Source of the DNA: an uncultured bacterium
Lineage (GTDB): Bacteria > Nitrospirota > Thermodesulfovibrionia > Thermodesulfovibrionales > Thermodesulfovibrionaceae
Assembly (NCBI GenBank): GCA_937998865.1
Contig: CALLBR010000004.1
Coordinates: 27,116 to 91,115, forward strand
DNA: 64,000 bases
Direction of reading: 5' to 3'
In this document: positions 1 to 63,322 of the stretch, in pieces
How positions within the stretch are numbered: the first letter of the stretch is position 1
Layout: each line of letters opens with the position of its first letter
Position numbers and translations under genes: made by a program
The notes under the pieces: model-generated
The model's input: the letters and a program-made list of their open reading frames with translations, nothing else
The model's database searches: none
Told to the model about the DNA's origin: nothing

Positions 1-391
1 TTGCAGCATACATAAATCCTGCATCAGCAATTAATAAAGGCCGAGAAGCTAATTCCTCTAGGGTTAGAAGAATTTTATTGCACCAATCAGCATCAGGCAT
101 AAGATAGTGAAAAGCTAAGGTAGTAAAAAATTTTTTTCTTAAGTCCTTTACTAAGAACTCATAAAGCCTTCTACTTCCATGCCCTTCTCCCGTATCTCCA
201 ACAAGATAAGCATAGGGGAGAGGTTTTTCAAGAAATTCCATCACTTCTATGGCTGAGGCAATCAGAGCTGGTGTTCCTCTTTGAATTGAGATCTCCCTTT
301 CTTCTAAGTATAAACTTCCTCTTTTTTTGTAAACTATTCCAAATAGGAGTGGAAAATTTTCATCTGGCACTGTGCCTATGATTGCGAGCAT
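1..391 (-). CDS. Partial unrecognised protein at the selenium locus (C-terminus outside window)
   Basis: An open frame runs from an ATG (complement of 389-391) to the window edge without a stop, about 130 residues. The visible start reads MLAIIGTVPDENFP and includes the segments YLVGDTGEGHGSRRLYEFL and LIADAGFMYAA. I cannot assign a family with confidence; the GDTGEGHGS glycine-rich turn and the DAG segment would suit a nucleotide- or sugar-binding enzyme such as a ribokinase/NnrD-like fold, but this is a guess. Its start overlaps the 3' end of the DUF3343 gene by 16 nt, so it is translationally coupled to the YedE/YedF/DUF3343 group and may share its selenium or sulfur role. Confidence 0.7.
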   Translation of the reverse strand, partial: MLAIIGTVPDENFPLLFGIVYKKRGSLYLEEREISIQRGTPALIASAIEVMEFLEKPLPYAYLVGDTGEGHGSRRLYEFLVKDLRKKFFTTLAFHYLMPDADWCNKILLTLEELASRPLLIADAGFMYAA

Positions 392-939
392 AATTCTTTA
401 ATTTTATCATAGGCTAACTGTAAAGCGTATCCACAGAGGGTGTGACCAATAAATCTTGGTTCTTTTGCCTCGTTAATTCTCTTCCCTACAAGCATGGCTG
501 CTAAGTAAGGAACATCAGGGCATCCTCCTCCTGATATGTTTACAATTATCTGTGAAGATTTATGCACAGTAATTTTCATATTGGCTGCTCTAACCATCAA
601 GAAATTTCCGAAATCTTTCACATGAAAAAGGTCAACAGGTTTTAGTCCTTCCTCATCAGATAGTACCCATTCAAGGGGAGGAAGTCCATGAGAGTCTAAA
701 ATATTTAAAATCCCCATAGAATGAACTATGGGGATTTCTATAGCAAGATCACATCCTTTTCTAATGTGAGCTGGAGGTCCCAAAACTTTTATGTTGTAAC
801 CTTTTTCTCTGAGGATATTTTCAGCTCTTATTACTTCTGAGGTATTGTCAAAAATAAGAAGAGCTTTGTCCTTTTCCTTTGATGATACTTTTCCTTTTTT
901 TTGTTTTCCTTTTCTGAATAAACTCTCAAGAATTTTCAT
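376..939 (-). CDS. DUF3343-domain putative Se/S carrier-like protein
   Basis: 187 residues. After a basic N-terminus (KGKQKKGK) comes a small alpha/beta domain of about 70 residues (ALLIFDNTSEVIRAENILREKGY ... GPPAHIRKGCDLAIEI) that matches the DUF3343 putative Se/S-carrier family, in which an Rxx(C) loop follows the second strand. The remaining ~100 residues form an additional domain with ISGGGCPDVPYLAAMLVG and a late Cys (HTLCGYALQ). The start is supported by AAGGAG just upstream of the ATG. It lies between TusA/YedF and the partial gene with almost no spacing, the grouping typical of selenium-mobilising loci. The function of the C-terminal extension is unknown; sulfur rather than selenium handling remains possible. 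Confidence 0.75.
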   Translation of the reverse strand: MKILESLFRKGKQKKGKVSSKEKDKALLIFDNTSEVIRAENILREKGYNIKVLGPPAHIRKGCDLAIEIPIVHSMGILNILDSHGLPPLEWVLSDEEGLKPVDLFHVKDFGNFLMVRAANMKITVHKSSQIIVNISGGGCPDVPYLAAMLVGKRINEAKEPRFIGHTLCGYALQLAYDKIKELCSQS

Positions 940-940
940 T

Positions 941-1159
941 TTACTCCTTTTTTATCTTTATTCTGTAACCAGAACCCTCTGTGATTATGTCTACTATTGA
1001 CCATCCCATAGATGAGGCTGCTCTTGATACATTTTCTTTAGAAGTGTCTGTATCAACTAAAATTTCTATTTCACCTTTGTCAAGCCTCTTAATTGCCTCA
1101 AGAGTTAAAAGCACAGGTTCAGGACATGAAAGTCCTTTTGCATCAACAATCTCAGCCAT
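941..1159 (-). CDS. TusA-family sulfur/selenium carrier (YedF-like)
   Basis: 72 residues from MAEIVDAKG. The ORF track begins 13 codons earlier, but AAGGAGGTAAAAATG places the start at 1159, leaving 2 nt to the upstream yedE stop. The protein is a single TusA/SirA domain with the signature VDAKGLSCPEPVLLT, whose CPxP cysteine carries persulfide in TusA proteins and is proposed to carry Se in YedF. It follows the YedE transporter and precedes DUF3343, the usual order of a selenium-metabolism cluster. Its likely job is to accept S or Se imported by YedE and pass it on for selenophosphate/selenoprotein synthesis; the window does encode a Sec-dependent formate dehydrogenase. Confidence 0.85.
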   Translation of the reverse strand: MAEIVDAKGLSCPEPVLLTLEAIKRLDKGEIEILVDTDTSKENVSRAASSMGWSIVDIITEGSGYRIKIKKE

Positions 1160-1161
1160 TT

Positions 1162-2259
1162 TTACCTCCTTCTCATTGTAAATCCTATTATTACGCAAAC
1201 AATTAAACCAATTGCTGTGGCTATTGCTCCATTAGGACCTATTCCTGCTGGAGAGCTGGCAAGTCCAAAATTATGGGCTACTGCTGCACCAACTATCATA
1301 CCAGTAGCAAAAATTGCTGCATCTCCATCTCCTTCTCCTGCCATGAAAAGCTGTCTTCCAGGACAGCCACCTGCTAGTGTAAAAGCAAGTCCGGCAAGAC
1401 TCATACCAAGAAAGTTCCATAGTTGCATTGAATGAGAAATGGGTTGTTTTTCAAAACCCGGGTTAAATTGGCCCAGTATTAGATTTGTTATAATTGCAGC
1501 AAGAAAAAGGGCAGCTACTCCTGAAAATAGATGTCCTTGTTTAAACAAGATGAGATCTCTAAAGGCACCCATTGTGCAGAATCGGCTTCTCTGGGCTAGG
1601 ATTCCAATAATTAAACCTACTGCAAGAGATATAAAAAGAGGAGCATGCTGAGAACCTGGTCCTTTTAAACTATAAAACAGTAACATTCCCCTTGCTTCTC
1701 CTTCTGGCTTGGGATCAATAAGGAGAAGTATCAATAATCCAAACATGAGTAAGGGGAAGCCTAATCCCATAGCCTTTGATTGACTTAGCTGAGTTCTTCC
1801 TAAGGAATATCCTGCCTTTAAAAATCTTGTGCCTATCCAAATACCAAAAGCAAGCCCAAGAAGTCCAAAAATTGCATTACCATCACCACCAGCAAGTCTG
1901 AGAAGTGTTCTCCATGGACATCCTAAGAATACTAAAGCACCAATCATAGCAAAGACACCAAGAATAAATCTAATGAAAGGTGCAGAGCCACCTCTTGGTC
2001 TGAATTCTTTAAGAGAAATAGCAGAAAGAAAAGCACCAAGAACAAAACCAATGATTTCAGGTCTAAGATATTGGACAACTGAAGCTCTGTGAAAACCTAA
2101 GGCACCAGCAATGTCTCTCTCCATACAGGCTACGCATATGCCCATATTGGGAGGATTGCCTAATTTTTGAAGGATTGGTGCTAAGATACCGATGATTAAT
2201 CCCACGAAAATAATTCCCTTTCTTGTGGCAAAAAAGTTTTTAAGTGCATCCATCCCCAT
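1162..2259 (-). CDS. yedE: YedE/YeeE-family putative selenium transporter
   Basis: 365 residues, strongly hydrophobic, about ten transmembrane segments in two related halves (each with a Gly/Cys signature: VFLGCPWRTLLRLAGGDGNA and LAGGCPGRQLFMAGEGDGDA). The N-terminal NMGICVACMERDIAGAL is characteristic of the YedE branch genetically associated with selenium metabolism, as opposed to thiosulfate-transporting YeeE. ATTGGAGG precedes ATG 2259; a second in-frame ATG lies two codons on. It is first gene of the yedE-tusA-DUF3343-unknown operon. Substrate (selenite-derived species versus thiosulfate) cannot be read from sequence. Confidence 0.82.
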   Translation of the reverse strand: MGMDALKNFFATRKGIIFVGLIIGILAPILQKLGNPPNMGICVACMERDIAGALGFHRASVVQYLRPEIIGFVLGAFLSAISLKEFRPRGGSAPFIRFILGVFAMIGALVFLGCPWRTLLRLAGGDGNAIFGLLGLAFGIWIGTRFLKAGYSLGRTQLSQSKAMGLGFPLLMFGLLILLLIDPKPEGEARGMLLFYSLKGPGSQHAPLFISLAVGLIIGILAQRSRFCTMGAFRDLILFKQGHLFSGVAALFLAAIITNLILGQFNPGFEKQPISHSMQLWNFLGMSLAGLAFTLAGGCPGRQLFMAGEGDGDAAIFATGMIVGAAVAHNFGLASSPAGIGPNGAIATAIGLIVCVIIGFTMRRR

Positions 2260-42574: not shown

Positions 42575-43989
42575 GAAGAGCTAAAATAGTCTGTACTATA
42601 GGTCCTTCCACAGAGAAAAGAGAAGTGATCAGACAGTTAATTCTGTCTGGCATGGATGTAGCTCGATTAAATTTTTCCCATGGCAGTTATGAATGGTTCA
42701 GAAAAATAATCAAAATTATTAGAGAAGAATCAGAAAAACTTTCTAAGTCTATAAGTATAATACAGGATCTCCAGGGCATTAAAATACGAATAGGAGATGT
42801 TGAGGGTGGACAGACAGAATTAATTGATGGAGAGTTAATAGAGATTTTCCATGGCCATGAAGTCTCCACAAATAAGCGCCTATACATATCTTATCCTTCA
42901 CTATTGGAGGATGTTAGAGCAGAAGAGGAAATTTTAATAGATGATGGACTTTTAAAGATAAAAGTCATTGAAAAACATAAGGATAGACTCGTGGGTGTAA
43001 TTGTGGAAGGAGGGATTTTAAAATCTAAAAAGGGTGTAAATTTACCTCATACAAGAACCACTATAAGTTCTTTTACAGAAAAAGACAAAAGAGACCTTTT
43101 ATTTGGTATAGATCAAGGTGTTGATTATGTAGCTGTTTCTTTCATTAGAAACAAAAGTGATTTATTGAGAATTAAAAACTGGGCAAAGGAAAATAATATT
43201 GAATTACCTCCGCTCATAGCTAAAATAGAAAAAAGAGAAGCTTTAGAAAATATTAATGAAATACTTGATTGCTGTGATGGAATTATGGTTGCAAGAGGTG
43301 ATTTAGGGGTGGAATTGCCTACAGAGGAAGTTCCTGTATATCAGAAAATGCTCATAGAAATTGCTAATCAGAAAAAAAAGTTAGTCATAACTGCTACCCA
43401 AATGCTTGAATCAATGCGGGAGCATTCAAGACCTACAAGAGCAGAGGCAACTGATGTGGCAAATGCTGTGCTTGATGGTACTGATGCTTTAATGCTTTCT
43501 GCAGAGACAACTACAGGTAAGTATCCTATAGAATCAGTTAGAACAATGGATTCAATAATAAGATACACGGAGGAAAAATTAGGAAAAAACATATTATCAC
43601 CCTTCAAAGTGAGCACCTATTTTCCAGAAGCAATAGCATCAGGAGCAGTAAGAGTTGCTCAAGATATTGAAGCTAAGGCTATTGTAGTTTTTTCTCATTC
43701 AGGATTCTCTGCTTTACTAATCTCAAAACTTAGACCTCAAATGCCCATAGTTACTTTTACTCCAGATTACAAAGTATATCTTCGACTTTCTTTACTTTGG
43801 GCAGTTATTCCTATGCATATTCCTTCTCAAATAGACGTAATTGACGATATTTTCCTAAAAGAGACAGAAGATAGACTTAAGAGTCTGAATCTTGTAAGAA
43901 ATGGGGATGCTGTTGTATTTGTTGCAAGCTCTCCTTTCATGGGCAACAAAAACGTCATTAGACTTCATAAAATTGGAGATCCTTTATAG
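42568..43989 (+). CDS. pyk: Pyruvate kinase
   Basis: 473 residues. KIVCTIGPSTEKREVI, ARLNFSHGSYEWF, AVSFIRNKSDL, PPLIAKIEKREALENI, MVARGDLGVELP, TATQMLESM and DGTDALMLSAETTTGKYP cover the catalytic barrel; the C-terminal regulatory domain is present. Last step of glycolysis. Overlaps nadB by 7 nt; the stop overlaps the convergent LysR gene by 6 nt. Confidence 0.96.
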   Translation: MLRRAKIVCTIGPSTEKREVIRQLILSGMDVARLNFSHGSYEWFRKIIKIIREESEKLSKSISIIQDLQGIKIRIGDVEGGQTELIDGELIEIFHGHEVSTNKRLYISYPSLLEDVRAEEEILIDDGLLKIKVIEKHKDRLVGVIVEGGILKSKKGVNLPHTRTTISSFTEKDKRDLLFGIDQGVDYVAVSFIRNKSDLLRIKNWAKENNIELPPLIAKIEKREALENINEILDCCDGIMVARGDLGVELPTEEVPVYQKMLIEIANQKKKLVITATQMLESMREHSRPTRAEATDVANAVLDGTDALMLSAETTTGKYPIESVRTMDSIIRYTEEKLGKNILSPFKVSTYFPEAIASGAVRVAQDIEAKAIVVFSHSGFSALLISKLRPQMPIVTFTPDYKVYLRLSLLWAVIPMHIPSQIDVIDDIFLKETEDRLKSLNLVRNGDAVVFVASSPFMGNKNVIRLHKIGDPL

Positions 43990-44892
43990 GAGTAAGTCGT
44001 TGTAAGGATAGTTTCTGAGGTAAGAGATAAATTCTTCTACTGCAGGAGAAAGAATTGAATTTTTTGGTAAAACAATGTAGAAATCTCTTGTTATTTTACC
44101 CTCTTTAAGTTTCAGAATTTTTAAGTTTCCACAGGATATTTCCTTTCTAATTGCCCATTTAGAGACAATAGAAAGCCCCATGCCTCTTTCCACAGCTTCT
44201 TTAATTGAACCAGTTGACCCTAAAATCAGAGCAATATGTAGATCAGAAATAGTGAGACCATTGTCAGCAAAAAATTTTTCAATAATAGCTCTTGTGCTTG
44301 AACCTTCCTCTCTTATGACAAAAGGCTCTTTTACTAAATCATATAGAGAGAAGGTTTTCTGTTTTGTTAAGGGATGATCCGCTGGACATATTACACAGAG
44401 TTCGTCAGAGATGATGGATTCTATATTAAATTTACTCTTTCCTGGCATTTCAGAAATAATTCCAAAATCTATCATGCTTGTGGAGAGCATTTCTAAGATT
44501 TTTTTCGCATTACCAATTGAAATACTAACCCTAATTTTGGGATGCTTCTTTTTGAAGTCTACTGCTACTGCAGGAAGAATGTAATTTCCTACAGTTGTAC
44601 CAGCTCCTATTTTAACACATCCTTTTATCAAACCAGTTATTTTACCAATCTCTTTAGCAGCTTCTGCATACAAGGTTAATATCTCTTTAGCATACTTATA
44701 AAGAATTTCACCCGCTGGGGTAAGGGTTATGGTACCAGAAGAGCGATCAAAGAGTTTGGTCTCATAAAGTTCCTCTAAAGCTTGAATTTGAAGGCTTACT
44801 GCTGGTTGGGTAAGATGAATAATTTCAGATGTTTTAGAAAAACTTTTGGTTTCAGCGACAGTGCAAAAAATCTTTAATTTATGGTCTTCCAT
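43984..44892 (-). CDS. LysR-family transcriptional regulator
   Basis: 302 residues from MEDHKLKIFCTV. The N-terminal winged HTH (TKSFSKTSEIIHLTQPAVSLQIQALEELYETKLFDR) and a substrate-binding domain (IRVSISIGNAKKILEML, VKEPFVIREEGSSTRA) resemble the CysL/CbbR group. The ORF-track start (44931) overlaps the -35 box of a well-formed promoter whose -10 lies 10 nt before ATG 44892, so the shorter form is preferred. Divergent from the CsoR-family repressor; ligand and targets unknown. Confidence 0.92.
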   Translation of the reverse strand: MEDHKLKIFCTVAETKSFSKTSEIIHLTQPAVSLQIQALEELYETKLFDRSSGTITLTPAGEILYKYAKEILTLYAEAAKEIGKITGLIKGCVKIGAGTTVGNYILPAVAVDFKKKHPKIRVSISIGNAKKILEMLSTSMIDFGIISEMPGKSKFNIESIISDELCVICPADHPLTKQKTFSLYDLVKEPFVIREEGSSTRAIIEKFFADNGLTISDLHIALILGSTGSIKEAVERGMGLSIVSKWAIRKEISCGNLKILKLKEGKITRDFYIVLPKNSILSPAVEEFISYLRNYPYNDLLL

Positions 44893-44902
44893 AGTAAAAT
44901 AA

Positions 44903-44939: not shown

Positions 44940-44957
44940 ATACCCCCTATGTTGACA
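44940..44957 (+). promoter_or_regulatory. Candidate CsoR/CstR-family operator and -35 box
   Basis: ATACCCCCTAT (44940-44950) directly abuts TTGACA (44952-44957). A -10-like TAAACT follows at 18 nt. A C/G tract flanked by A/T is the usual shape of CsoR-family operators, and a partner GGGGGTA occurs in the leader at 44998-45004, where it may also serve as ribosome-binding site. Autoregulation of the downstream repressor gene is the natural reading. Confidence 0.5.
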
Positions 44958-45014
44958 TCCAAATTAATCATATTTTAAACTATAAAAAAAGAGTTAAGGG
45001 GGTAAGGTATAAAG

Positions 45015-45275
45015 ATGGATAATAAAACCAAGTTGATGCAGAGGTTAAAGAGAATAGAGGGGCAAATAAGAGGACTTCAAAAAATGATTGAATCTGGCAG
45101 ATCCTGTGAGGAGATTATTACTCAATTTGCTTCTATAAATGGTGCTTTAAAGGGAGCAGGGTTGATGATTGTAAAGTTTTATATTAAAGACTGTTTAACT
45201 AAAAATGAAAGCTCTCATGAAGAAATTGAGAAAGATATAGAGAAAGTTATTAAAACATATATATCAGCTGTTTAG
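45015..45275 (+). CDS. CsoR-family repressor, CstR-like persulfide-sensor type
   Basis: 86 residues, the all-helical CsoR/RcnR/FrmR fold: MQRLKRIEGQIRGLQKMIESGRSCEEI ... MIVKFYIKDCL. The two thiols are Cys31 and Cys60. In copper-sensing CsoR a His lies four residues before the second Cys; here that position is Tyr56, so a Cu(I) site is incomplete. Cys31/Cys60 without His matches CstR, the per/polysulfide sensor. A sulfide-stress or sulfur-oxidation regulon is therefore more likely than copper; the downstream genes are now pseudogenes. Confidence 0.85.
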   Translation: MDNKTKLMQRLKRIEGQIRGLQKMIESGRSCEEIITQFASINGALKGAGLMIVKFYIKDCLTKNESSHEEIEKDIEKVIKTYISAV

Positions 45276-45286
45276 GAGGTGATCTT

Positions 45287-45469
45287 ATGCCCTTATATGA
45301 ATAAAGATGTAAAAAATGTAACAATACTTTCGAGTTTTACAAGCCAATTAATAGAAAAGACGAAAAACAAAAGTGTCCTCTCTGTGGAAATTTTGAGACA
45401 GAGCGTTTAATCTCTTCATTTTTAAATAAGTCAGGCAGCTGTAGTTTTTCCTACAATTTCGGTAGTTGA
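45287..45469 (+). pseudogene. FmdB-family zinc-ribbon protein, interrupted by an early TAA
   Basis: Read through codon 6, the frame gives MPLYE-stop-RCKKCNNTFEFYKP ... KCPLCGNFETERLISSF, a ~60-residue FmdB-family zinc ribbon with its two CxxC pairs. FmdB proteins start MP(I/L)YEY.C..C, so the TAA (45302-45304) replaces the conserved Tyr codon. AGGAGG is retained before the ATG. 11 nt downstream of the CstR-like gene, so it belonged to that operon. The small size kept it out of the ORF track. Confidence 0.8.
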
Positions 45470-45507: not shown

Positions 45508-46462
45508 ATGAATTTATCAAGAAGAGGTTTTTTTGACATTATCATCTGTATTTTGTAGCACTCTTTTATTAGGCAATTATGTGGATGCTTCTAAAGGTAA
45601 ATATGCTACTTTAGTTGATATTGATAAATGTGACGGTTGTAAGGATGAATCTATACCACTCTGCACAAAGGCTTGCAGAGAATACAATAAAGATAGAATC
45701 CCAGAACCTCAAAAACCAATTTTACCCTATTGGCCAAGAAAGACTTATGAAGATTGGTCTAATAAAAGAGATAAAATCGACACCTTAACACCTTACAATT
45801 GGATATTTATTCAAAAAGTTAAAATTGAAGATGAAGAAATTTTTATTCCTCGAAGATGTATGCACTGTGATAATCCTCCTTGTGTTCGGCAGTGTCCCTT
45901 TGGCGCATTATCTAAGTATTCTGAGGGAAATTCTGTAATTAATGATAAATTATGTTTTGGTGGAGCAAAATGCAGAGATGTTTGTCCTTAGCATATTCCT
46001 CAAAGACAAGCTGAAGTTGGAATTTATCTGAAGATCTTGCCTAAGTATGCTGGAGGCGGAGTAATGTATAAATGTGATTTATGCAAAGATCGAATAAAAA
46101 AGGGACAAGAACCAGCCTGTGTTGTTGCTTGTAAAGAACGACTGGGAGAAAAAGCAGTATTTACTTTTGGTTTAAGAGAACAAATTTATGATATGACATT
46201 GAAGAGAGCAAAGAATGAAGGATTATACATATATGGTGATAGACAGAACGGAGGAACTTCAACTCTTTACCTTTCTAAAATTCCCTTTGAAAGGATAAAC
46301 AATGCTCTTAAAGCCCATAATGAGAGATTTCAAATGCCTCTAAAGGTGGAAAATAAAATAGAGTCTACCTTTAATCCAATTGGTAAAGTAGCGCTCCTTT
46401 CTGGAGCTTTATCCATGGTGGGAGCTATTGTGGGAGCAATAAAATCTAAGAAAAATCCATAA
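45508..46462 (+). pseudogene. Tat-exported four-cluster Fe-S electron-transfer subunit, frameshifted and with internal TAG
   Basis: The intact product would be ~317 residues. ATG 45508 (GAAGGAGG upstream) gives MNLSRRGFF, then a frameshift in a 7-T run (45528-45534); removing one T restores MNLSRRGFLTLSSVFCS, a Tat signal. The ferredoxin part has CDGC, CMHCDNPPCVRQCP and CRDVCP, followed by an in-frame TAG (45989-45991) where relatives have Trp (CPWHIPQRQ), then CDLCKDRI, CVVACKER and a C-terminal membrane anchor (VALLSGALSMVGAIVGA). It resembles FdnH/HybA-type beta subunits. Two independent lesions argue for decay over a sequencing error. Confidence 0.85.
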
Positions 46463-46475
46463 AAGGAGGAAAACA

Positions 46476-47149
46476 ATGAAAAGTAAAATAAGAAGACACA
46501 GTAAAATAGAACTTATAGAGCATTGGAGTATTGCTTTGTCAGGTATTGTACTTCTTTTTACTGGTTTAGGTTGTTTACCTCTTTACAAAATATAAGTGAA
46601 ATACCAGGTTTTGCTTGGACAGCTGATTTTTACAATGTTACTCTTATTCATTACATTGCTTCAATAGTATTTCTTTGTGGTGTTGTCTTTCATATTTTTT
46701 ATCATGGACTAAGAAAAGATTATGGTCTTTTGCCCAAAAAGGGAGATATTTCAAAGGGTATTAAAGTTTTATTGGCAATGATAGGTATTGGGAAAGAACC
46801 ACCTTCAGAGAAATATCTACCAGAACAGAGAATTGCCTATGTAGGAATTGGATTTGTCATAATTTTACTTCTCATAACAGGTATAATAAAAATTCTAAAA
46901 AATTTGGAGTGGATTTTATTATCGCCAGAAGTGGAAAGCATAAACACTATAATTCATACTCTTTCAGGTTTTCTTTTTTTGCTTGCCTTCATAGTTCATG
47001 TAGGTACAGTACTAATTTTTCCTTCAAATTGGCCTCTTTTGAAAAGCATGTTTACTGGTTATGTAGATGAGGAAGATGCTAAGCACAGACATTCTTTATG
47101 GTATAACAAGATTAAAAGAGATTTGACTGCTATAATTTTGGGCAAGTAA
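46476..47149 (+). pseudogene. Formate dehydrogenase-type cytochrome b (gamma) subunit, frameshifted
   Basis: ATG 46476 with AAAAGGAGG reads MKSKIRRHSKIELIEHWSIALSG ... LPLYKI then stops at 46593; the rest (ISEIPGFAWTADFYNVTLIHYIASI ... GLRKDYGLLPKKGDISKGIKVLLA) continues in another frame to 47149. The shift lies in AAAATATAAG near 46587-46593. Joined, it is a ~220-residue four-helix di-haem cytochrome b of the FdnI type with its membrane histidines (EHW, IHYIAS, FHIFYHG, HTLSGF). The ORF-track N-terminus (MEYCFVRY) is out-of-frame translation of the first helix. Confidence 0.85.
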
Positions 47150-47230: not shown

Positions 47231-47470
47231 CTATAAAGAAATAAATTTTTTGTGAATTTTCTCCCTAATTTGTTCATCTGTGGCATCGGGTTCAGACAGA
47301 AAAAGTTCCATGAGTCTCACGTTGTTATGAGATAGACAATTGGGGCATCTGTCTTGAATATGGATTGTAAAACAATCTAAGCAAAACAAAGCAGATCTTA
47401 GAGGAATAAGGCATTTCCCAAATTTTTCTTTAATGCTACATTTTTCTTCAATCTCATAGATTTTTTTCAT
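47231..47470 (-). CDS. Small zinc-ribbon protein
   Basis: 79 residues from MKKIYEIEEKCSIKEKFG; the ORF track adds 8 codons. It contains RSALFCLDCFTIHIQDRCPNCLSHNNV, i.e. two CxxC knuckles forming a zinc ribbon, then an acidic/basic tail. ATG 47470 is preceded by an extended -10 TGTTAAAAT ending 5 nt upstream, a leaderless arrangement that supports both the gene and its start. Function unknown; perhaps a nucleic-acid- or protein-binding adaptor. Confidence 0.65.
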   Translation of the reverse strand: MKKIYEIEEKCSIKEKFGKCLIPLRSALFCLDCFTIHIQDRCPNCLSHNNVRLMELFLSEPDATDEQIREKIHKKFISL

Positions 47471-47475
47471 AAACG

Positions 47476-47484
47476 ATTTTAACA
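47476..47484 (-). promoter_or_regulatory. Extended -10 promoter of the zinc-ribbon gene, leaderless
   Basis: Minus strand TGTTAAAAT, the hexamer (complement of 47476-47481) ending 5 nt before ATG 47470; TTAACA lies 19 nt upstream as a weak -35. Confidence 0.45.
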
Positions 47485-47528
47485 CATATTGCAATAAGAG
47501 TGTTAAAATTTTTAAAATATATTATCTT

Positions 47529-60259: not shown

Positions 60260-63200
60260 ATGGAGTTGACAAGGCGAAGTTTCTTAAAGCTCTCCACAGG
60301 CGCTTTGCTTCTCAGTTCAATTGGTCTTAATCTTGAGCCAGCAAAGGCATACGCTGCTGAACTGAGAACAAAAGGCGCTAAGGAGACAACTACAGTATGT
60401 CCTTACTGTTCTGTAGGGTGTAGTATTATTGTTTCTGTGAAAGATGGTAAGGTTATTAACACAGAGGGTGACCCTGATAGTCCTATTAATGAAGGATCTC
60501 TTTGTCCGAAGGGGGCTTCAATCTATCAAATGGCAAATAATCCTTACAGACTAACTGAACCCCTTTACAGAGCACCTGGAGCAAATCAATGGAAGAAAAT
60601 CTCATGGGAAGAGGCATTAGATAAGATTGCAAAGCTAGTTAAAAAGACAAGAGACAAATATTTTATGGTAAAGAATGAAAAAGGTCAAGTAGTAAATAGA
60701 ATTGATGCTATTGCCCATGTGGGTTCAGCTGCCCTTGATAATGAGGAATGTTATCTTCTACAAAAATTAATGCGTTCTTGGGGGCTTGTTTATATTGAAC
60801 ATCAAGCCCGTATATGACACTCCCCCTCTGTAGCGGCTCTGGCAGAGTCGTTTGGTAGAGGAGCAATGACCAATCAATTTAACGACCTTAAAAATGCTGA
60901 TGTAATTCTCATAATGGGTGGAAATCCCGCAGAAAATCATCCTATTGCGATGAAGTGGATAATGAGAGCAAAAGAAGAAAGAGGTGCTAAGCTTGTTGTT
61001 GTTGATCCTAAATTCACAAGAACTGCCTCCAAGGCAGATCTCTATGTTCCAATCCGTTCCGGGACTGATATCGTATTTCTAGGTGGACTAATAAAGTATA
61101 TAATAGACAACAACTTATACTTTAAAGATTATGTTCTTAACTATACTGACGCATCTTTTCTGGTTGATCCTAACTTTAAACTTCCTGATGAATTAGATGG
61201 AGTATTCTCTGGTTATGATGAGAAAAAGAGAGCTTATGATAAATCCACTTGGAAATATCAACTTGATGAAAATGGAGTTCCTAAAAAAGATCCTTCATTG
61301 CAGCATCCAAATTGTGTATTTCAACTTTTGAAGAGACATTACACGAGATATACAATAGATACTGTTTCTGACATAACTGGAGCTCCTAAGGATAAAATTG
61401 AAGAATGTTATAAGATTCTTGCTTCCACAGGCAAACCAGACAAAGTAATGACAGAATGTTATGCCATGGGTTGGACGCAGCATACTGTGGGTACCCAAAA
61501 TATAAGAGCATTCACCATAATTCAACTTCTACTTGGCAATGTGGGAATGGCTGGAGGAGGTGTTAACGCTCTCAGAGGTGAGTCCAATGTTCAGGGTGCC
61601 ACAGATGCAGGACTTCTTTTCCATATCTTGACTGGATATAATCCAACCCCTGTGGCCAGTGATGTTGATCTTAAGACCTATATTGAAAAATATACGCCAA
61701 AAACAAAAGAGCCAAAAAGTGTTAACTGGTTGTCTAATAGACCTAAGTACATAATCAGTTATCTAAAGGCATTGTATGGAGACAAAGCTACTAAGGAAAA
61801 TGATTTCTGTTACAGTTATTTACCTAAGAGAGATGATGGTCAAAACTGTTCTTGGCTTATGATTTTTGATCAGATGTACCAAGGTAAGATTAAAGGGTTC
61901 TTTGCTTGGGGACAGAATCCTGCCTGTTCTGGTGCTAACTCAAACAAAACAAGAAGAGCTCTTGCTAAACTTGATTGGCTTGTTTGTGTAAATCTTTTTG
62001 ATAATGAAACTGCTTCCTTCTGGCGTGGACCAGGAATGGATCCAAAGAAGATTAAAACAGAAGTATTTCTGCTTCCATGTGCTTCCTCAGTGGAAAAGGA
62101 AGGAAGCATCACGAATTCTGGCAGAATAGCACAATGGAGATACAAAGCAGTTAATCCTTATGGTAAATCATTGCCTGATGCAGAGATTATGAATGAATTA
62201 TACTTTAGAGTTAAAAAGTTGTATGAAAAAGAAAAAGGAGCATTTCCAGAGCCCATAATCAATCTTACTTGGAATTATGGAGAGGCCGACAAGAATGGAA
62301 AAATCAAACATATAGACATTCACAAAGTTGCAAAAGAAATAAATGGTTATTTCACTTCAGACATACCTGAACATCCTGTTGATAAGAAAGCTTATAAAAA
62401 AGGTCAGCAGATTCCCAGCTTTGTTTACTTAAAAGATGATGGAAGTACTGCTTGCGGAAACTGGATTTATTGTGGTAGCTACACCGAGGCAGGAAACATG
62501 ATGGCAAGAAGAGGAAAAGAAGATCCCACAGGACTAGGTTTATTCTCTAACTGGGCATGGTCTTGGCCTGTAAATAGAAGAATTATTTACAACCGAGCAA
62601 GTGTAGATCCACAGGGTAATCCATGGGATCCAAAGAGACCATTAATTAAATGGGATGCGGCTAACAAGAAATGGGTAGGAGATGTACCAGATGGTCCGGC
62701 TCCACCTCTTGCTTTGGAAGGTGGAAAACTTCCATTTATTATGAAACCTCTAGGTGTAGGAGCCCTATTTGGACCAGGTTTAGCAGATGGACCTTTCCCA
62801 ACTCATTATGAACCTCTGGAATGTCCATTCCAGGAAAATCCTCTATATAAGAAACACAGAATTAATCCAACAGTGAAAATTTTTGATACGGAAGAGGATG
62901 TCTTTGTTTTCTGTGATACAAGATATCCTTATGTTGGAACTACCTATAGAGTAACTGAACACTGGCAGACAGGAGTTATGACAAGACATTCTGACTGGCT
63001 CCGTGAGCTTGAACCTCAAATTTTTGCAGAAATAGATCCAGTTCTTGCAAAAGAAAAGGGGATTAAAAGCGGTGATAAAGTTATTGTATCCTCAGCAAGA
63101 GGAAAAATCTGGGCAATTGCTATAGTAACACCAAGACTTCAGCCCATGAAAGTTTTAGGACAGACAATACATATTGTAGGCTTGCCATGGCATTATGGAT

Positions 63201-63322
63201 GGAGATTCCCTGAAGATGGTTCAGGTGGAGATAGTGCAAATCTTCTTACACCAACAATAGGTGATGCAAATACCATGATACCTGAGTCTAAGGCATTCAT
63301 GGTAAACATAGAGAAGGCATAG
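60260..63322 (+). CDS. fdhA: Formate dehydrogenase catalytic subunit, selenocysteine-containing, Tat-exported
   Basis: One 1020-residue protein read through an in-frame TGA (60815-60817, residue 186 = Sec); the ORF track splits it into 60260-60817 and 60866-63322. Tat signal (ELTRRSFLKLSTGALLLSS) then the [4Fe-4S] ligands CPYCSVGC and LCPKG, the ARI-Sec-HSPSVAALAESFGRGAMTN active site of FDH-N-type enzymes, MGGNPAENHP, molybdopterin-binding segments and a C-terminal molydopterin dinucleotide domain (KEKGIKSGDKVIVSSARGKI). Oxidises formate in the periplasm with Mo or W bis-MGD. AGGAGGAGG precedes the ATG. The fdhB gene follows after 10 nt. Confidence 0.95.
60815..60850 (+). promoter_or_regulatory. 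Sec UGA codon and candidate bacterial SECIS hairpin
   Basis: TGA at 60815-60817 is followed after 8 nt by CTCTG (60826-60830) pairing with CAGAG (60843-60847). The loop carries GGCTCT, resembling the apical GGTCT of the E. coli fdhF SECIS element that SelB binds. The inner stem is imperfect, so the fold needs verification. Confidence 0.6.

Follow-up and report, generated by a model that had tools for sequence, protein, structure and literature searches.

What does a CsoR-family repressor sense once the histidine ligand for copper has been lost, and what is left for it to control when the genes behind it have decayed? Both questions are raised by a 64,000-nucleotide stretch of DNA (hereafter the window) from a hot-spring sulfate reducer of the Thermodesulfovibrionaceae, in which an intact repressor gene stands before three pseudogenes (Table 1). 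The first-pass annotation of this locus had read the repressor as a persulfide sensor of the CstR type.

Table 1 Features of the repressor locus, in window coordinates.
Feature	Position	Strand	Details
LysR gene (NF040786, selenium metabolism-associated)	43984..44893	-	intact; divergent, intergenic region common with repressor
ATACCCCCTAT	44940..44950	+	one base 5' of -35 box
Operon promoter, sigma-70-type	44952..44981	+	TTGACA (-35, 44952-44957), 18 nt, TAAACT (-10, 44976-44981); 10/12 consensus bases
Conserved operator candidate TTAAGGGGGTAAGGTAT	44994..45010	+	genus consensus ATARGGGGGNWAGGTAT; between -10 region and start codon
CsoR-family (PF02583) repressor gene	45015..45275	+	86 aa, ATG start, intact ORF
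fmdB-like zinc-ribbon pseudogene	45287..45469	+	codon 6 TAT to TAA
Pseudogene, exported four-cluster Fe-S subunit (HmcB/HybA/FdnH-like)	45508..46485	+	1-nt insertion, two in-frame stops
Pseudogene, cytochrome b subunit (FdnI-like, PF01292)	46476..47149	+	7-nt deletion

Residues and phylogeny of the repressor

The repressor belongs to the CsoR/RcnR superfamily both by its match to the PF02583 profile (E 1.7e-25; 89.6 bits, cut-off 22.8) and by its three-helix fold (AlphaFold2 model, pLDDT 84.6), for which the top matches in the PDB were InrS, CsoR, FrmR and CstR. It is the sole PF02583 gene in the 1.75 Mb window genome, and its nearest relative is L016 (92% amino acid identity). The key residues, in window numbering, are Cys31, Tyr56 (at the position of CsoR His61) and Cys60. 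As had been claimed from the sequence, the two cysteines, 29 residues apart, have the spacing of CsoR Cys36/Cys65, and the copper-ligand His is lost; the whole protein contains a single His, and most orthologues have one or none. Cys31, Tyr56 and Cys60 are unchanged in all 14 aligned Thermodesulfovibrio sequences (that of the window and 13 congeneric orthologues), so this set of residues is not due to chance.

In two trees, neither the Cu-CsoR clade (97/93) nor that of FrmR/RcnR (100/98) included the repressor clade. The CstR-group references formed a clade of their own (98/92), with the repressor again outside, and the trees placed it on the CstR/sulfur side with weak support. AU tests rejected neither a join with Cu-CsoR (p 0.14) nor one with CstR (p 0.26) or FrmR/RcnR (p 0.36), as the 87 columns available are too few to reject any placement. 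In the phylogeny which had been proposed as a check, the repressor falls apart from the metal- and formaldehyde-sensing clades and from CstR alike, at a strength short of rejecting any of the joins.

The groups also differ in their residue signatures: copper proteins have Tyr30 and His56, the CstR group has Asn56 without Tyr30, and the repressor clade has Tyr56 without Tyr30 (residue 30 of the repressor is Ser). Asn56, which corresponds to N55 of Streptococcus pneumoniae CstR (mutated in PDB 7mq3), was found in 7 of 7 CstR-group references. The Cys pair alone cannot separate CstR from CsoR, because Cu-CsoR has the same pair together with His56. A CopA-type ATPase was found within about 6 kb of 24 of the 34 His56 loci vs 1 of the 37 non-His loci, counted over loci which are not phylogenetically independent, so that His56 tracks CopA. 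It should be noted that the copper clade includes two Nitrospirota Y56 proteins, of which one (L257) is near CopA; since Tyr56 proteins also occur beside CopA, the missing His is no proof of copper-blindness. Tyr56 with the Cys pair was also found in members of the Deinococcota, in M. taiwanensis within a rhodanese cluster. No CstR model was matched in the NCBIfam search, in which genuine staphylococcal CstR, like the repressor, scored only against RicR/FrmR/RcnR.

Among characterised proteins, Cu(I)-CsoR (PDB 4m1p, 2hh7, 4adz) has the fold and the Cys pair in common with the repressor but differs in having Tyr30, His56 and copA/copZ neighbours; where it has the His61 ligand and a Tyr35-type residue, the repressor has Tyr56 and Ser30. 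RcnR and InrS carry a His ligand at position 56, and here the repressor has Tyr56, with Cys60. FrmR requires Pro2 with Cys35 (PMC5146963), and residue 2 of the repressor is Asp (Glu or Lys in congeners). E. coli FrmR is alike in its Type I operator core (ATA-G/C tract-TAT) and in a convergent pair of sites around the promoter; it differs in having no second sensing Cys and in controlling frmA. Copper, nickel and formaldehyde readings were rejected on residues and clade, the AU tests lacking power.

CstR (Staphylococcus; S. pneumoniae, PDB 7mq1-7mq3) likewise has Cys31/Cys60 and no His at the copper position, and its C31-C60' bridge lowers operator affinity (PMC5480029). A regulon which is probably a single operon (PMC5480029) and an ATACC-type site near the -35 box are further points of likeness. 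It differs in Asn56, in forming its own clade and in its targets, which are sulfurtransferases and a persulfide dioxygenase. The “CstR arrangement” of the first-pass annotation is supported by the Cys pair without ligand His; it is not supported by Tyr56 nor, within the low power of the AU tests, by the tree position outside the CstR clade. As far as can be judged from sequence, a description as CstR would suit the protein less well than one as a two-Cys repressor of the CsoR family, orphaned and in a clade to itself.

Another close parallel is TTHA1953, a two-Cys CsoR-like protein of Thermus thermophilus which represses sox genes and loses DNA on Cys oxidation; it responds to oxidation by Cu(II)/H2O2 and is without response to NaHS in vitro, and its reduced form is insensitive to metals (PMC10318464). 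Its cysteines (C39/C68) have the same 29-residue spacing, and the likeness in Tyr56 is with its Deinococcota relatives, TTHA1953 itself lying outside our alignment. It differs from the repressor in binding TACNNTACNNNNGTANNGTA, which has no G/C tract, and in controlling distant sox genes. On the residues of the clade, the Deinococcota proteins with Tyr56 and the Cys pair, and TTHA1953, sensing by two thiols is the best inference.

The decayed module

Relatives, among them the congeners G009 and G002, have the operon intact, in the form repressor-(fmdB)-FeS-cytochrome b with the repressor gene first. The Fe-S protein was found in 10 of 296 sampled Nitrospirota genomes, in each case with the repressor gene beside it on the same contig, and the csoR-FeS-cytb linkage was also found in Syntrophaceae, so that the operon occurs in two phyla. 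Stand-alone operons of repressor, FeS and cytochrome b, with neither fmdB nor a catalytic subunit, were observed in another Thermodesulfovibrionales genus and in Syntrophaceae (L255, L064, L065, L084). Among the papers searched, none links CsoR, FmdB and cytochrome b.

An intact fmdB orthologue exceeds the TIGR02605 cut-off. Among solved structures and curated models, the Fe-S and cytochrome b subunits come closest to FdnH and FdnI of formate dehydrogenase-N (FDH-N; PDB 1kqf) and to HmcB and HybA. The module differs from FDH-N in that the operon has no catalytic subunit (nor does it have a metal transporter) and in that an intact orthologue of these two subunits falls below all curated cut-offs, with 62.8 of 334.7 bits for the FDH-N beta equivalog and 70.4 of 115.85 bits for gamma. 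The suggestion that the module served sulfur rather than formate metabolism cannot be read from the module itself, whose nearest solved relatives are subunits of FDH-N; a link of the repressor to sulfur is given by rhodanese and psr genes in relatives (see below). The window also contains a formate dehydrogenase alpha gene (60260-63322), with an in-frame TGA (60815-60817) in the typical selenocysteine context ARI(TGA)HSPSV, followed by its own Fe-S subunit gene which runs off the contig end; as this enzyme has an Fe-S subunit, the module cannot simply be regarded as the part which it lacks.

The decay of the module, which had also been noticed from the sequence, was borne out by five disabling lesions across its three genes; the 1-nt insertion falls in a T run, and the others differ in kind and are spread over the three genes. 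Breakage or loss of the Fe-S/cytochrome part was likewise observed in G006, G007, G015 and G001, the last of which additionally lacks most of the repressor. Loss of the relay has thus recurred among the congeners, and the repressor usually outlasts it. Between the window and L016, the repressor had a dN/dS of 0.149, a value within the range of the pseudogenes (0.127-0.162), so that the decay is too recent for retention to be separated from drift. By a hand estimate, the density of five lesions per 1.8 kb or so would put 0.7 lesions in the repressor, which gives a probability of about 0.5 that it is intact by chance. It is plausible that the repressor has lost its function and is “on the way out”, which an intact ORF neither shows nor excludes. 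Beside the module, genus-wide, lies a gene for a small Cys-rich protein (47231-47494, minus strand; KKIYEIEEKC...CLDCFTIHI..CPNC), which is retained in G001 after loss of the module.

Promoter elements and neighbouring sulfur genes

The TTGACA box of the operon promoter is kept in congeners. An ATACCCCCTAT element had been described as abutting this box, and it does lie one base before TTGACA; its C5 run, however, is private to the window genome, and footprinting showed that the genus shares ATACC alone. The relatives have the form ATACCYT at this position, with ATACCCTCAATG in L016 and ATACCTTA in others. The proposed genome scan gave 2 exact copies of ATACCCCCTAT and 32 matches at ≤ 1 mismatch vs 42 for the reversed control, and we rejected it as a genome-wide motif which is not distinctive. 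The E. coli frmR promoter carries ATACCCCCCTAT. The same ATA-C(5-6)-TAT core occurs in that promoter, so ATACCCCCTAT is no pointer to CstR.

The better operator candidate lies downstream of the -10 region. With ≤ 1 mismatch, ATARGGGGGNWAGGTAT precedes csoR in 13 of 13 congeners in which the gene is at this locus; it recurs three more times in 16 genomes, which equals the reversed control and is at chance level. Its G tract may double as a ribosome-binding sequence and may be conserved for that. The window genome has one exact copy, and any further site there has at least 2 mismatches; the idea that the repressor now controls other targets thus finds no second good site there.

In one congener, G006, sulfur genes adjoin the repressor: its neighbours there are three rhodanese genes, together with a gene for a multihaem cytochrome, and psrA is about 10 kb off. 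About 45-25 nt before the repressor start in G006 (L025) we observed an inverted repeat, TAGGGAGGA-GTAT-TCCTCCCTA, with a strong fold (z -3.3), which may act either as terminator for the rhodanese gene or as an altered operator. The PsrA/PhsA-like gene scored 564 of 694 bits against the PhsA model (G004 orthologue). In the other congeners the psrABC promoter is divergent from a Rieske gene and has ATACCCCC-N4-CCTAT or a closely similar sequence 5' of its -35 box, with a second element, GGGGGTGAGGGTATG, at the start codon; psrA promoters bear ATACCCCC-N4-CCTAT and GGGGGTGAGGGTAT. G001, the only congener with a visibly broken repressor, has lost both psr elements and kept the -35 and -10 boxes. 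The csoR operator pattern matched the psr region of G009 with one mismatch, and a one-base-longer pattern had also flagged psrA start sites. The generic 17-mer (ATA-N11-TAT/G4-C4) had 25 matches in 365 kb of congeneric DNA, which is partly redundant, 20 of them in csoR/psr promoters; the window had zero matches, vs 1.1 per 64 kb in shuffled windows.

These elements would link the repressor to sulfur through the psr promoters, a link in which our confidence stops slightly short of even because it was found after the fact and with a single loss of the repressor. In G005 the psr element is present, and the repressor and the neighbouring LysR gene were not found; this exception may be an assembly gap. 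Rhodanese promoters had no conserved 17-bp element, and the repressor copies of Syntrophaceae and G181 have no adjoining sulfur genes. At the thresholds used, neither psrA nor the triple-domain rhodanese had matches in the window genome, and with this reductase not found there the repressor looks orphaned.

Several further features of these regions were observed. In L285-L288 and L290-L293 (G008, G014, G002, G005, G004, G012, G003, G011), the motif YYCQGPT(TGA)ALTPS of the exported triple-domain rhodanese includes a TGA in frame, where two orthologues (L289 and L284) have Cys; this TGA probably encodes selenocysteine in a C-x4-U loop of a rhodanese domain. Two congeners (L295:6745-6761, L297:9698-9714) have ATAGCCC-N2-AGGGGTAT where a small cytochrome bc gene ends, which may be chance or coding conservation. 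On the same contig as the selenium-type LysR gene, the window has a selenium/sulfur gene set at 376-2259 (minus strand): a YeeE/YedE-type transporter, a TusA-like CPEP protein (about 940-1165) and a DUF3343-like ORF.

Signals and targets of the repressor

The explanation which we consider best, and to which as a whole we give an even chance, is a two-Cys, non-copper repressor of the CsoR superfamily which is orphaned in the window genome. The presumably tetrameric protein would, when reduced, bind 17-bp ATA-(G/C tract)-TAT operators flanking or overlapping its target promoters, and a di- or polysulfide formed between Cys31 and Cys60' of neighbouring subunits would release it from DNA. The predicted trigger is reactive sulfur species, with sulfane sulfur as the putative effector; another oxidant is less likely. 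Its primary target would be its own operon, repressor-fmdB-FeS-cytochrome b, which appears to encode an exported Fe-S/quinone-reactive cytochrome b relay without catalytic subunit, and in the genus it would probably control psrABC, a polysulfide/thiosulfate reductase-like operon, as a second target. With the relay recently pseudogenised and no psrA found, the repressor itself would be the only recognisable target left in the window genome.

The signal could be the same and the protein a bona fide CstR, a per/polysulfide sensor controlling a sulfur-metabolising module. The Cys pair without ligand His or Tyr before Cys31, the weakly supported tree position and the ATACC beside TTGACA, an arrangement also present between the cst genes of S. 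equorum, are consistent with this; we consider it unlikely, given the tree position outside the CstR clade, Tyr in place of the Asn56 of all seven references, the FDH-N-like module and the lack of cstA/B, TusA, DsrE or TauE adjoining the repressor. Equally unlikely in our estimate is a thiol/redox or electrophile sensor of a non-sulfane signal (O2, nitric oxide, quinone or aldehyde) which switches a quinone-linked electron relay. The predicted target is indeed a respiratory relay with neither a catalytic nor a sulfur enzyme, TTHA1953 answers Cu(II)/H2O2 oxidation and not NaHS (PMC10318464), and CstR is also oxidised by HNO (PMC5480029), but the rhodanese and psr linkage in congeners points to sulfur.

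A sensor of Cu or Ni with altered ligands is very unlikely: although a sister position to Cu-CsoR or FrmR/RcnR is compatible with the AU tests, Y56 proteins occur inside the copper clade and E. coli frmR has the same operator core, the ligand position lacks a His and Cys31 a preceding Tyr, most orthologues have hardly any His and the operon has no metal transporter. Least probable of all is an FrmR-type sensor of formaldehyde with a role in formate/C1 metabolism, for which the FDH-like module and the resemblance of the ATA-C5-TAT core to the frmR promoter could be cited; Pro2 is absent, the repressor lies outside the FrmR/RcnR clade at 100/98 and the operon has no frmA. A thiol/sulfane-sulfur sensor is thus, from residues and gene neighbourhoods, the most likely identity of the repressor, with sulfur sensing as the leading hypothesis.

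The sulfur-responsive repressors of CsoR type known so far either protect against sulfide stress or regulate the oxidation of sulfur. More broadly, and only tentatively, the clade may represent a new CsoR-type thiol-switch subfamily in anaerobic sulfate reducers, which would sense sulfane sulfur and act on respiration itself, governing a psrABC-type polysulfide/thiosulfate reductase and an Fe-S/cytochrome b relay without catalytic subunit through paired 17-bp operators that decay once the repressor is lost; this we hold to be somewhat improbable as it stands. The predicted operators make control of psrABC directly testable in cultivable Thermodesulfovibrio, and the window genome offers a view of the repressor just after the loss of its targets. 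Were the clade to control the anaerobic reduction of polysulfide/thiosulfate, this same type of switch would determine how electrons flow in a sulfate reducer.
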